Shown here: one piece after another, positions 34,114 to 37,841 of the stretch
How positions within the stretch are numbered: position 1 is the first letter of the stretch
How the letters are laid out: each line of letters begins with the position of its first letter
DNA from: Alphaproteobacteria bacterium
Lineage (GTDB): Bacteria; Pseudomonadota; Alphaproteobacteria; UBA8366; GCA-2717185
Direction of reading: 5' to 3'
NCBI GenBank assembly: GCA_040905865.1
Contig: JBBDQU010000081.1
Coordinates: 1 to 64,000, forward strand
DNA: 64,000 nt
The notes under the pieces: model-generated
Told to the model about the DNA's origin: nothing
What the model saw: only the letters and a program-made list of their open reading frames with translations
Database searches by the model: none
Program-made: the position numbers and the translations under genes

Positions 34114-35148
34114 TCAATCTTCGGCGCGCACGTAATAAATGCTGCGCCCGCCGCCTTCGCGCTGGATCAGCCCCTCATCCAGAAGCTTCTGGAAATCCTG
34201 CTTCCGGGCCGCCAGGGAGCGGTTGGATATCCGGCCGTATTCGCGCTGGCTGATGCTGCCATGCGCATCGATGTAATCGAGCAACCGCCGGTGGTGTTCT
34301 TCCAGCCTGACCGGAGACCCCTGCGGTATGGCGCCGCGAACGCGGCGCAGTTCATCCAGGATACCGTCGGCGAAATATTCCAGCCAGGCCGTAAAATCGA
34401 TGTCCTTCGCAAGCTCGTAATAGTCGCCTTGCAGCCCCACCGTCTGGAAATACCTGCTGACGTTGCGGTTGTAGTAATTCTCAAAGGCGAAAATCTCGAA
34501 GATGTCGAGCCCCCCCAGGCCCAGTATCGCGGTTGTCAGCAACCGCGCCGTCCGTCCGTTGCCATCCATGAAAGGGTGGACAATGACAAACTGGCGATGA
34601 AACAGACCGGCCAGAATGATCGGGTCTGTTTCAGCGTCGTTCCTGGCGACAAACCCGGCCAGTTCCCGGGTCAGTTCGGGCACGTCCCCGTGATCCGGCG
34701 GGATGAAAACCACCGCGTCAGGCCGTCGGGGATCGCGGATAAGGACGGGTTCTTTCCGCAGGGCGCCAATGTGACCCGGATTGGGCAGCAGGCCATCGAC
34801 AACGATGCCCTGTATCCTTTCCATCGTCGGGATATCGAGCCGGAACCGGCCCGATTTTACCGCCGCATGAATTTCCTGGAGCGCCCTGTTGTAATTCAGT
34901 ATCTCGCGCTCCGTATCGCGCATATGGATCGGCGCGGCCTTGAGCAGCCGCTTCACATCCGTCAGCGGCAGCGGATTGCCTTCGATACTGGTCGAGGCAT
35001 GTGTCGCCAGTTCGCGCGCTTCCCGCTCGAGCCGCGCCAGCGTGCGCCTGTTCAGGCCAAGCGCCCTGATTTCGCCAATCGCCTCGCCAATCCGGCGCAT
35101 CGTGACGAGAAGCCTGTTTGTCACGGTATAGTTCGGCTTCCATTCCAT
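34114..35148 (-). CDS. Fic-domain AMP-transferase (class II) with C-terminal winged helix
   Basis: A 344-residue Fic protein that probably transfers AMP to target proteins. The active motif HPFMDGNGRTAR lies at residues 191-202 and is complete. The inhibitory (S/T)xxxE(G/N) motif is STSIEG at 52-57, near the N-terminus, making it class II and self-inhibited. The C-terminal ~60 residues (HHRRLLDYIDAHGSISQREYG...) look like a winged-helix DNA-binding domain. ATG 35148 gives the family start MEWKPNYTVTNRLL. No antitoxin gene is adjacent. It begins the accessory region and has an unusual triple repeat at its start. Confidence 0.92.
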   Translation of the reverse strand: MEWKPNYTVTNRLLVTMRRIGEAIGEIRALGLNRRTLARLEREARELATHASTSIEGNPLPLTDVKRLLKAAPIHMRDTEREILNYNRALQEIHAAVKSGRFRLDIPTMERIQGIVVDGLLPNPGHIGALRKEPVLIRDPRRPDAVVFIPPDHGDVPELTRELAGFVARNDAETDPIILAGLFHRQFVIVHPFMDGNGRTARLLTTAILGLGGLDIFEIFAFENYYNRNVSRYFQTVGLQGDYYELAKDIDFTAWLEYFADGILDELRRVRGAIPQGSPVRLEEHHRRLLDYIDAHGSISQREYGRISNRSLAARKQDFQKLLDEGLIQREGGGRSIYYVRAED

Positions 35149-35179
35149 AGCCGAATAATAGCCGAAAAGTAGCCGAATA
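35147..35179. repeat. Three tandem 11-bp repeats at the fic start
   Basis: ATAGCCGAATA (35147-35157), ATAGCCGAAAA (35158-35168) and GTAGCCGAATA (35169-35179) are contiguous, one helical turn apart, and end on the fic start codon. On the coding strand they read TATTCGGCTAT-like units directly upstream of ATG. They could be an operator array, perhaps for the winged-helix domain of Fic itself, and they replace a normal ribosome site. Confidence 0.75.
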
Positions 35180-35259
35180 CCAAAATCAGGCACATTCCGC
35201 TCAGGACGGAGCGTCATACTCATCCTCGACCCGACGTCGCATATCCAAAACGCAGATCG

Positions 35260-35284
35260 AATTACGGTGCCAGTTTACTAAATA
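35260..35284 (+). repeat. Solo copy of the transposase terminal repeat
   Basis: A perfect 25-bp copy of the terminal sequence containing GGTGCCAGTTTACTAAAT, in direct orientation with the left end of the transposase element. It lies 28 bp before the next copy at 35288 and carries no coding sequence. Confidence 0.9.
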
Positions 35285-35286
35285 CC

Positions 35287-35468
35287 GAATTACGGTGCCA
35301 GTTTACTAAATACACCTTTCGGCTTCGGTCCGCGCTTTTGCGGTTTCAGGGTGCGTCCGGTCTTCGCCTCCAGCGCGGAATTACGGTGCCAGTTTACTAA
35401 ATACACCTTTCGGCTTCGGGCCGCGCTTCTGCGGTTTCAGGGTGCGTCCGGTCTTCGCCTCCAGCGCG
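35287..35468 (+). repeat. 91-bp tandem duplication of the transposase gene 3' end
   Basis: The 91 bp from 35287 to 35377 are repeated at 35378-35468 with two visible substitutions. Each unit starts with the terminal repeat and continues through the last codons of the transposase (GRTLKPQKRGPKPKGVFSKLAP region in reverse). Only the second unit is joined to the full gene, so the first is a duplicated tail. Confidence 0.9.
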
Positions 35469-36114
35469 TCGAGCCAGGCGTCGCTGCCGAGCGGCCGGCC
35501 CGAGGTTTCCGACATGCGCAGGCCGCGCCAGGCGGCCGCGTCGTCCCGGTCCTGGCCGAGAAACCCGGCGAAGCTGCCATAGCGCTCCAGCACCGGCCCG
35601 ACCCTGACCAGCGCATCGTCCCGTTCGGCCAGATGCGCCCTTACGCTGGACCAGGGCCAGTCCTCCGCCCGCGAAACCAGCCGCGCCCGCACCGGGTTGA
35701 GCGACACATAGCGCACCGCCGCCGCCAGATGCGCCTCGTCCATCGCCACCGCGCCGAAGCGCCCCTGCCACAGATGGCCCGTCCAGCGGTTGCGCGCGTT
35801 AATATAGCCGGTGTAGCGCCGGTGCGCGTCGGCGAAGGTGCGCCGCAGCCCGTCCGCGTCCGACGGCGTGACGATGATGTGGACGTGGTTCGGCATCAGG
35901 CAGTAGCACCAGACTTCCGCGCCCGCCTTCGCCGCCGCTTGCGCCACGAGGTCACGGTAGAGCGCGTAGTCGCCATCCTCGAAGAATGTCCGCGCGCGCC
36001 GGTTGCCGCGCTGGGTCACGTGACAAGGTACGCCGGGCAGGACAAGGCGGGGGAGACGGGGCATGCCGGCATCTTTGACATAATTCGGTTGTTTAGTAAA
36101 CTGGCACCGTAATT
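35379..36114 (-). mobile_element. REP-associated transposase unit bounded by 23-bp inverted repeats
   Basis: A 736-bp unit. Its left end (35379-35401) and right end (36092-36114) are perfect 23-bp inverted repeats with GGTGCCAGTTTACTAAA as the core. The transposase gene fills almost all of it, and its stop codon lies inside the left repeat. Additional direct copies of the repeat occur at 35260 and 35288, and a slightly altered one at 36834. RAYT genes are known to be associated with repeated extragenic palindromes, but a unit closed by long inverted repeats is unusual. Confidence 0.8.
35381..36064 (-). CDS. REP-associated tyrosine transposase (Y1/HUH, IS200-like)
   Basis: A 227-residue single-strand DNA transposase of the RAYT group. 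The HUH motif is MPNHVHIIV, with the two metal-binding histidines at residues 60 and 62; a catalytic tyrosine candidate lies in HRRYTGYIN at 84 or 87. WTGHLWQGRFG and AVRYVSLNPVRARLV are typical RAYT strings. The last residues VFSKLAP and the stop are written by the element's terminal repeat. The ATG is at 36064; 27 bp separate it from the inner edge of the right inverted repeat. The gene looks intact. Confidence 0.93.
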   Translation of the reverse strand: MPRLPRLVLPGVPCHVTQRGNRRARTFFEDGDYALYRDLVAQAAAKAGAEVWCYCLMPNHVHIIVTPSDADGLRRTFADAHRRYTGYINARNRWTGHLWQGRFGAVAMDEAHLAAAVRYVSLNPVRARLVSRAEDWPWSSVRAHLAERDDALVRVGPVLERYGSFAGFLGQDRDDAAAWRGLRMSETSGRPLGSDAWLDALEAKTGRTLKPQKRGPKPKGVFSKLAP

Positions 36115-36189
36115 ACGTAATTAAAGCAGTCATCTGTCGAATAATCAACTCAGCTATTACGTAGGACAGTAAAGGGCTAATTTTTATTG

Positions 36190-36738
36190 TTACCCACCTC
36201 GGTTCGCTGCTGAGCCGATCCGGCGATCACTTCTCGAGTCGGACTCAACGTCAGTTTCCGGGCCAGTCACGTGTGTCCCTTGGCCGAGCCGGTAAACGAC
36301 TCTGCCATTCCGATCAAACACTATGATGAGTTGCTCAGCAAATATGTCTCGGCTTGGCGGTTGAGCGAATTCACCAAGCTTGTACGCATATGCACCTTCC
36401 GCTCCGAGACCGCGCATATTTGCATTCGGTAGCTTCTTCTCTAATTCATCAGTCCCGACCACGACGAGATCTGGTGGCCCGAAAAATGAGCGGATTTGGT
36501 CTTCAGTCAGACCATCTTTCGCTGCTGAGAAAGCGTCATTAAGTAACAGTTTTCGTCCGCCATGCTTCAGCCATTTGGAAAATTCATCCCAGTCTTGATT
36601 GTCCGACGACCAACTGGACTGAACGTACCCAATGCGAACATCCTGGACAGCATCAGAAATTAAGAATTTATATGTCCAGAGAATTGCAACGGCGAGTACA
36701 GCGCCGGACATCATTGCTAGCGCAAATTTCCACCACAT
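36190..36738 (-). CDS. Hypothetical membrane-anchored protein, AT-rich
   Basis: About 182 residues from ATG 36738 (a TTG at 36750 is also possible). A single hydrophobic segment near residues 5-25 (ALAMMSGAVLAVAILWTYKFL) is followed by a soluble domain with LTEDQIRSFFGPPDLVVVG and later QLIIVFDRNGRVVYRLG. The pairing of a G-P turn with a final FDxxGxV strand recalls the BamE/SmpA fold, but the similarity is weak. Base composition is clearly more AT-rich than the neighbours. It lies between two copies of the transposase repeat, in opposite orientations, which suggests arrival with that element. Confidence 0.6.
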   Translation of the reverse strand: MWWKFALAMMSGAVLAVAILWTYKFLISDAVQDVRIGYVQSSWSSDNQDWDEFSKWLKHGGRKLLLNDAFSAAKDGLTEDQIRSFFGPPDLVVVGTDELEKKLPNANMRGLGAEGAYAYKLGEFAQPPSRDIFAEQLIIVFDRNGRVVYRLGQGTHVTGPETDVESDSRSDRRIGSAANRGG

Positions 36739-36833
36739 ACAGTGCACCAAACCATTACAAAATTACCCACCTATTACATTCAAGCAATAGGCATATGCAA
36801 CACAATATATGTTATATGTTGGGTGTTAGATAG

Positions 36834-36858
36834 AATTACCGTGCCAGTTTACTAAATA
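36834..36858 (+). repeat. Degenerate solo copy of the transposase terminal repeat with relic tail
   Basis: The 25-bp repeat recurs here with one change (ACCGTGCC for ACGGTGCC). The next ~45 bp (to about 36903) still resemble the 3' end of the transposase gene in reverse, with many substitutions, so this is the remnant of an older insertion rather than a free repeat. The remainder of the 36751-36986 gap holds nothing else that I can identify. Confidence 0.75.
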
Positions 36859-36986
36859 CACTAAATTATTTCGGTTTTGGTCCAAGATTTTAGCAGGGTC
36901 AGGTCTTGTTTTGTGCGCAATACGCCAAATTTTCCGACGCCGTGACGATGGCATTTTTTGTGTTCCAGTCAACCTCCTCACCGAGG

Positions 36987-37238
36987 CTATAGTTCGCCAT
37001 TCTCTTTCATTTCGGTGTGAACGGCACGGCGGATATCTTCCTTGCCGAGCAGGGAAAGTCCACTTTCCTCTGCCTGGATCAGTGCGGCGCGAATGCGCTC
37101 AATCTCCGTGGTCCGCACCTGCTTTTCGCGGATCGCCTCCCGCACGATTTCGCTGTCAGAGGCGTAATGACCGGACGCCAGTTGCGTCTGAATCCATGCT
37201 TCCTGCTGTTCCGTCACCGTTATACTTTTCCGGATCAC
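36987..37238 (-). CDS. parD: ParD-family antitoxin, no toxin gene adjacent
   Basis: An 83-residue ribbon-helix-helix protein. IRKSITVTEQQEAWIQTQLASGHYASDSEIVREAIREKQ covers the DNA-binding part typical of ParD; the C-terminal half would bind the toxin. The start is taken as GTG 37238, which has GAGGGAG seven bases upstream; an ATG at 37280 would add 14 residues not seen in the family. parE normally follows parD directly, but the downstream 80 bp show no ParE-like frame and then run into the relic of the transposase repeat. The toxin has probably been lost. Confidence 0.8.
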   Translation of the reverse strand: MIRKSITVTEQQEAWIQTQLASGHYASDSEIVREAIREKQVRTTEIERIRAALIQAEESGLSLLGKEDIRRAVHTEMKENGEL

Positions 37239-37434
37239 AGAAATGTCTCCCTCAAGAATGTTTCCCGCATGATCATTCAATCATACTTAATCCTACTATT
37301 TTGCACACTTCATCGCAAACACCCTGACGATCGTCGCCGATGCCTTGCTATTTTCCACTAATTATGCTTTAATTCCTTTTTTGATTGTTCGCCTGATACC
37401 GGAATGGCGCTATCCGACGAACGCGGAGCGCCGC

Positions 37435-37650
37435 ATGCCGACAAATGCAAACAAAAGCCAATAAATGCCAATGAATTCGATTGTTTTTTTGCCTCACAGC
37501 CGTAGCAGCACCCGGCGGCCGCGCCTTTCGCCGCATATCGCGGCGGAAGGATGGTCGGTTGCCGCAATGCGCCCCGCTCCCCGGAAGCCCGCGAATGCCC
37601 ATAAAAGCCGACAAATGCCCATAAAAGCCAATCGATGCGCATTTTTTTCG
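37435..37650. repeat. Two diverged copies of an A-rich / T-tract repeat block
   Basis: The blocks at 37435-37490 and 37592-37650 share, in order, GCCGACAAATGC, AAAAGCCAAT, CGAT, a run of seven T and GCC. The second also contains the 13-mer GCCCATAAAAGCC twice, 20 bp apart. They do not read as a protein family on either strand. Confidence 0.6.
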
Positions 37651-37841
37651 CCCCGCCGCGCGCCCGTCTCCCCACCATCCGCGCGGCGGATGTTAAGCGA
37701 TGTTAAGCGATGTATAGCGATACTGACTTTTTCGCCAACCACCCCGCCGCGCGCCCGTCTTCCCGCCATCCGCGCCCCGGATGTTAACCGATGTTAAGCG
37801 ATGTTAAGCGATGTATAGTGATACTGACTTTTTCGCCAACC
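37651..37841. repeat. Tandem duplication containing 10-bp GATGTTAAGC arrays
   Basis: A ~91-bp unit (37651-37741) is repeated at 37742-37841 with ten extra bases. Each unit holds consecutive 10-bp repeats: two GATGTTAAGC plus GATGTATAGC at 37689-37718, and GATGTTAACC, two GATGTTAAGC and GATGTATAGT at 37780-37819, each array followed by GATACTGACTTTTTCGCC. The second array ends about 60 bp before the alpha/beta hydrolase start. Confidence 0.85.

Follow-up and report, generated by a model that had tools for sequence, protein, structure and literature searches.

Truncated tandem copies anchored at the tips of TIRtron ends, and their probable origin by nicking, templated extension and rejoining

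TIRtrons have been described as units in which a Y1 transposase gene lies between long terminal inverted repeats (TIRs) unrelated to GTAG REPs. According to the part of that description available to us, the gene may overlap the repeat with its 3′ end, TIRs also occur single or clustered, and the TIR motif GGGGWSAS is present in the majority of published cases (PMC3733652). Among the transposases themselves, the TnpA-Y1 subclass 2.1 is characterized, in the accessible sections of its classification, by NHVH, by Y[IV]xLNP, by a length of ~238 aa and by a C-terminal HTH-like domain, and a table in the same source equates it with Bertels group 1 (PMC6006769). As regards chemistry, cleavage by TnpA-REP and HuH enzymes leaves a 3′-OH and a 5′-phosphotyrosine, and the 3′-OH can prime synthesis or attack the link, as stated in the portion of the source at hand (PMC8266576). 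By which route RAYT-like enzymes disperse repeats, and if they act to this day, is an open question in the field. The parts of the TIRYT/RAYT literature that we examined contained no report of cleavage by any TIRYT enzyme. Judging from literature listings, nothing on point was found on end duplication with Y1 or HuH transposases, and a text search for the end sequences returned only unrelated papers. Tandem duplications that start 1–2 nt outside the tip of an end and run inward over a variable distance seem not to have been described.

Here, we analysed a TIRtron located in a window of 64,000 nucleotides, that is, the whole stretch of DNA under study, which belongs to an alphaproteobacterial assembly of 4.37 Mb in 85 contigs. 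The original prediction, made from the sequence alone, had placed the transposase gene in a 736-bp unit closed by perfect 23-bp ends, with the stop codon of the gene inside the left end, and this was recovered base for base (Table 1). It had also pointed to an end copy standing alone at 35260. The 23-mer is indeed present there (35260–35282), and it extends to a clean 28-bp tandem duplication, in which CG precedes the end stretch and CG is found again after its 26 nt. The 91-bp tandem copy of the gene tail held as well, being 98% identical to 35378–35468 with two substitutions, and so did the decayed end at 36834, a one-mismatch copy with a short tail, which is the remnant of an older element. 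All three tandem copies of the window (91, 28, and 8 bp) were clean tandem duplications, with inward runs of 90, 26, and 7 nt, and the duplicated units began 1–2 nt outside the AATT tip (G, CG, and T, respectively).

Table 1. Features of the TIRtron unit and of the end copies around it, in window coordinates
Feature	Position	Strand	Size	Remarks
TIRtron unit	35379–36114		736 bp	between perfect 23-bp terminal inverted repeats
Y1 HuH transposase gene, TIRYT kind	35381–36064	minus	684 bp, 227 aa	HuH NHVH, Tyr YVSLNP
Left terminal inverted repeat	35379–35401	plus		3′ end of gene; contains TAA stop
Right terminal inverted repeat	36092–36114	minus		5′ end, upstream of gene; perfect relative to left
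Tandem partial end copy	35287–35377	plus		G outside tip plus 90 nt of end/gene tail
Tandem partial end copy ("solo" repeat)	35258–35285	plus		CG plus 26 nt of end
Tandem partial end copy, right end	36115–36122	minus	8-bp unit	AATTACG plus T
Decayed end, older element	36834–36861	plus		28 nt from tip match left end, one mismatch

The window protein was matched by Pfam Y1_Tnp with an E-value of 3.4e-9, and NCBIfam REP_Tyr_transpos scored 72 bits, under its cut-off of 80. In an alignment of 28 sequences, PF01797 (Y1_Tnp) was found in all 28, and H60, H62, Y119, N123, and P124 were invariant, within the HuH motif N59-H60-x-H62 and the tyrosine motif Y119..N123-P124. The protein shares NHVH, YxxLNP, a near length, and a lack of REP hairpins with subclass 2.1 as defined in the sections available; the C-terminal HTH of the subclass was not detected by Pfam in the analysed proteins (PMC6006769). 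No HTH family was matched at E ≤1 in the 28 aligned proteins, save for a weak winged-helix match in one. Incidentally, we noticed that the C-termini in this alignment (A1) carry a conserved KRGPKPK or RGRP tail, which resembles an AT-hook, and that the ends to which such a tail might bind are AT-rich.

The unit is a TIRtron with a Y1 HuH transposase of the TIRYT kind, a family already known (Di Nocera 2013). With the published TIRtrons, in the part of the description we had, it has in common a gene between long non-GTAG TIRs and a repeat running over the 3′ end of the gene; its end, GGTGCCAG, differs from the published GGGGWSAS at two positions, and that part of the source makes no mention of truncated end copies anchored at the tip and arranged in tandem (PMC3733652). 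TIRs were also present at many homologues. The end motifs of relatives (GGTGACAG, GGGGACAC, GGGGTCAG, and GGGGACAG) spanned the range from the window motif to the published one, and longer ends of relatives, such as AATTACGGTGACAG, AATTCCGGGGACAC, and AAATGGGGTCAGAG, bridged the two. The protein motifs and the absence of REPs fit subclass 2.1 of Quentin 2018, and the TIRs fit the TIRYT/TIRtron class of Di Nocera 2013.

The E. coli REPtron/RAYT system (TnpA-REP) has the same HuH plus single-tyrosine chemistry, a cut beside the repeat, and local repeats near the gene, but its REPs are GTAG-tagged hairpins in the part of the source at hand, whereas the window ends neither fold nor have GTAG (PMC8266576). 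Window ends folded no better than shuffles, the end alone did no better in 9 of 10 cases, and inspection of the window end by eye revealed no GTAG. A REP/REPtron reading was rejected, as the ends do not fold and flanking GTAG-tagged palindromic REPs were not encountered. The initial likening of the locus to RAYT genes beside repeated palindromes was, therefore, not quite right, the ends being TIRs without hairpins, and TIRYT/TIRtron is the better name. IS200/IS605 elements have a transposase of the same Y1 family (PF01797) as the window gene, but they carry subterminal hairpins rather than TIRs, and direct repeats were absent at 20 of 21 of the flanks that we inspected. Membership in IS200/IS605 was also rejected: the window protein has YVSLNP in place of Y---Q, and its ends contain no hairpin. 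Some TIRYT families did show palindromic ends (L133, L145, L155, L177, L180, and L182; e.g., GGGGACAGTTACTGGTAACTGTCCCC), which may form a link between TIRs and the hairpins of REPs.

Reading of the flanks of homologues revealed that many of their ends were preceded by a staircase of their own truncated copies, in the same orientation. At 29 of 86 ends, a tip-anchored copy of at least 8 nt lay no more than 75 nt beyond the end, as compared with 7 of 1306 far windows; the tip was set by a GGTGAC-like motif, independently of the copies, and the innermost motif was taken as the end, so that the position "outside" is partly built in. No array was seen at 57 of the 86 ends, and reverse-complement copies were seen at 1 of 86. 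The Fisher values assume that windows are independent and should be taken as indicative. These counts derive from 90 motif-called ends, from which false calls (L128 D, L136 D, and two of L140 D) were dropped by hand; the upstream end of L047 was shifted by hand to its inner copy, and near-duplicate elements (L122/L126, L055/L057, L154/L158, and two copies in L153) were retained. Within the first 60 nt of the end, 67 matches were counted irrespective of the part matched; 49 of them started at tip position 0 or 1, and the inner (3′) stops ranged from 8 to 32. Successive copies had the same base immediately outside the tip in 47 of 52 cases, against ~30% in random pairs. This indicated a fixed starting point for the duplicated unit, located outside the tip. 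Most single-copy arrays (16/19) were clean tandem duplications, and the join of these 16 exhibited no microhomology in 10, 1 nt in 3, and 2 nt in 3. Filler was present at a few junctions (gaps >4 nt in 4 of 52).

The same pattern was observed in two further sets. In Gammaproteobacteria, with a different query, copies were found at 12 of 36 ends versus 4 of 571 far windows, and 20 of 24 matches started at 0 or 1; in this set the start limit was 0–2 rather than 0–1 (none of the matches began at 2), the flank was long enough at 36 of 37 ends, and a few false-looking called ends were retained. In a third set, alphaproteobacterial and collected with a Skermanella protein as query, arrays were read by eye at 4 of 12 loci, one of them with six copies. 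Overall, direct repeats were present at 37 of 118 TIRYT sides (17/57 and 20/61), as compared with 1 of 21 IS200 sides, the latter being a small control that comprised 11 genes recognised among 27 loci (L218–L244).

A comparison between two species was informative as to where the copies arise. On plasmids pSR-1 of Skermanella rosea and pSM-2 of S. mucosa, the element is found at the same site, with flanks 91–96% identical. An old outer copy is common to both species. The copies closest to the element are not the same in number or length, and in each species they match the tip that it has at present. Since the arrays differ at a shared site, copying must have happened at the resident element in this pair, the only same-site pair with arrays that was found. 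A same-site comparison in another genus (nine genomes) yielded a single other carrier, with the element at a different site.

What can be read directly from these genomes is a fixed start, a variable stop, clean tandem units, and no required microhomology, together with the recurrence of arrays in several bacterial groups and a change at a fixed site. The best explanation, and in our view a probable one, is a nick made at the tip by the TIRtron transposase, followed by templated extension into the end and rejoining. The Y1 HuH transposase would recognise the TIR and nick the strand outside the AATT tip, at a distance of one to a few nt, leaving a 3′-OH on the flank and a 5′-phosphotyrosine on the end. 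Sometimes, the 3′-OH would be extended by a polymerase that takes the end, in some cases together with the gene tail, as its template over a variable distance, and the extended strand would then be rejoined to the 5′ end. Each cycle would add a tandem copy with its start at the nick and no set stopping point, and repeated cycles could build staircases of truncated copies, including the 28-, 91-, and 8-bp units of the window. Three points of this scheme are inferred, namely the role of the element's own transposase as the breaker, the single-strand nature of the break, and the strand polarity. A similar product would be expected if a double-strand break were followed by end joining.

The main rival is replication slippage without a transposase, wherein repeats pair in single-stranded DNA and the polymerase stalls at the base of the stem and restarts, yielding tandem copies from that base. 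Such a stem base also predicts a fixed start near the tip, and some arrays have equal short units (7, 7, and 7 in L117), as slippage is expected to produce. Still, we consider slippage unlikely: 10 of the 16 clean duplications are without microhomology, the end alone rarely folds better than shuffles, as seen above, and the 21 IS200 flanks showed no excess of repeats even though IS200 ends form hairpins.

Another possibility was nested insertion, that is, elements re-inserting into their own old ends, with the outer part of the split end staying behind as a truncated copy. The 5′ anchoring of the copies is what such an outer remnant would look like, and old solo ends do exist. Yet, in none of 21 tests was the inner remainder of a split end present beyond the element, the base outside the tip is common to copies, and at the site shared by the two Skermanella species the array has changed next to an element that remained in place, so that we find this scenario hardly credible. 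It is scarcely better for an ordinary active insertion sequence whose extra copies would be the debris of whole-unit moves and deletion, an idea that we regard as very unlikely. Two-ended units, miniature derivatives, and the occurrence of the same element at different sites are in keeping with it, but debris should show random cuts on both sides whereas the matches mostly begin at the tip, relatives are hardly ever met on plasmids, and the search for a clean empty site was without success. Templated local copying, one of the two origins that the original prediction had put forward, emerged strengthened by the recurrence of truncated tip-anchored copies in relatives, by their differences at a shared site, and by the lack of split-end remainders.

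Copying by nick, extension, and rejoining might have a wider bearing. We propose tentatively, and with slightly less than even confidence, that TIRYT transposases are in-place end copiers: a tip nick would prime short repair synthesis and rejoining, the binding site being amplified outward with the enzyme unmoved, and REP-like repeats could have been seeded across genomes by this very step if the extended strand attacked another site. If the arrays are enzyme footprints, they map the cut site one to a few nt outside the tip, they reveal action in place, and they make activity readable from genome sequence alone.

We evaluated how far the end is distributed. With up to 3 mismatches, the 23-mer occurred six times in its own assembly, five of these in the window, as compared with no match for the reversed 23-mer in the same 4.37 Mb, which indicated that the repeats are not due to chance. 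Chance origin was rejected on this basis, the reversed control giving one match in 385 genomes of the class. Elsewhere in the same genome, decayed 5′-end relics were seen on contigs C51 (twice), C61, and C48, and contig C9 carries a 69% homologue. Near position 95768 of C51 (L026), a 5′ end in reverse orientation lies directly against a forward fragment of the gene start, which gives the impression of a head-to-head meeting of two 5′ ends. The end is not confined to the window either: exact matches to the 23-mer came from 15 stretches, which belong to 13 other genomes, mostly Sphingomonadales, plus a Nitrosomonas and a Thiohalocapsa. In one of these, a Novosphingobium bin, there is a perfect two-ended unit along with its own separate tail relic; two of the stretches hold miniature derivatives of 153 and 101 bp, and others hold solo ends. 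In a class-wide sample, the end with up to 2 mismatches was present in 5 of 385 genomes, own genome included.

The other origin put forward at the outset, movement of the whole unit, is plausible over evolutionary time, though weakly supported. In its favor, elements 96% identical lie in unrelated flanks of two species, with the match beginning at the tip, and the stretches with the exact 23-mer include the perfect two-ended unit and the two miniature derivatives mentioned above. In a Pseudomonas aeruginosa record there are three transposase copies; the end sequence is the same in all and has CAT in front of it, two of the copies have a common downstream flank, and the two copies tested have 32-bp perfect repeats. 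On the other side, relatives of the gene were found in 7 of 72,556 plasmid records, a plasmid search with a 33-mer end gave one weak match, and a single query, the Pseudomonas element, found no relative among 50,697 phage records and no match in E. coli genomes. Within the genus, no clean empty site was found for the window unit. In the same-genus genome G001, the left block is kept to 34090, with ~100 bp matching 35110–35213, and most of the Fic gene is absent; the right block is located on a different contig, together with an old end relic of a similar kind. Setting past moves in relatives against the rarity on plasmids, the phage result, and the empty-site search, the units appear to have moved formerly, and the window copy may have done so.

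The relic of G001 (C135:987) and that of the window both lie upstream of the same hydrolase gene, at ~0.6 kb and ~1 kb, respectively. At 987–1050 of that contig (L172), the old end relic is succeeded by a further partial end, AATTGCGGCGCCAGT, and it is preceded by a gene fragment that, by eye, we named IS110-like. In the window, the unit has a Fic gene on one side and a gene for a ParD-like antitoxin on the other (34114–35223 and 36987–37280), and TIRYT genes on four plasmids likewise adjoin genes of the MazEF, Doc, or HipA type. Further along, at 37430–37830, short dispersed repeats form a mosaic of AATGCCAATAAA-like and GATGTTAAGCGATGTATAG-like units, pieces of which also match other contigs of the same genome and genomes of the same genus.
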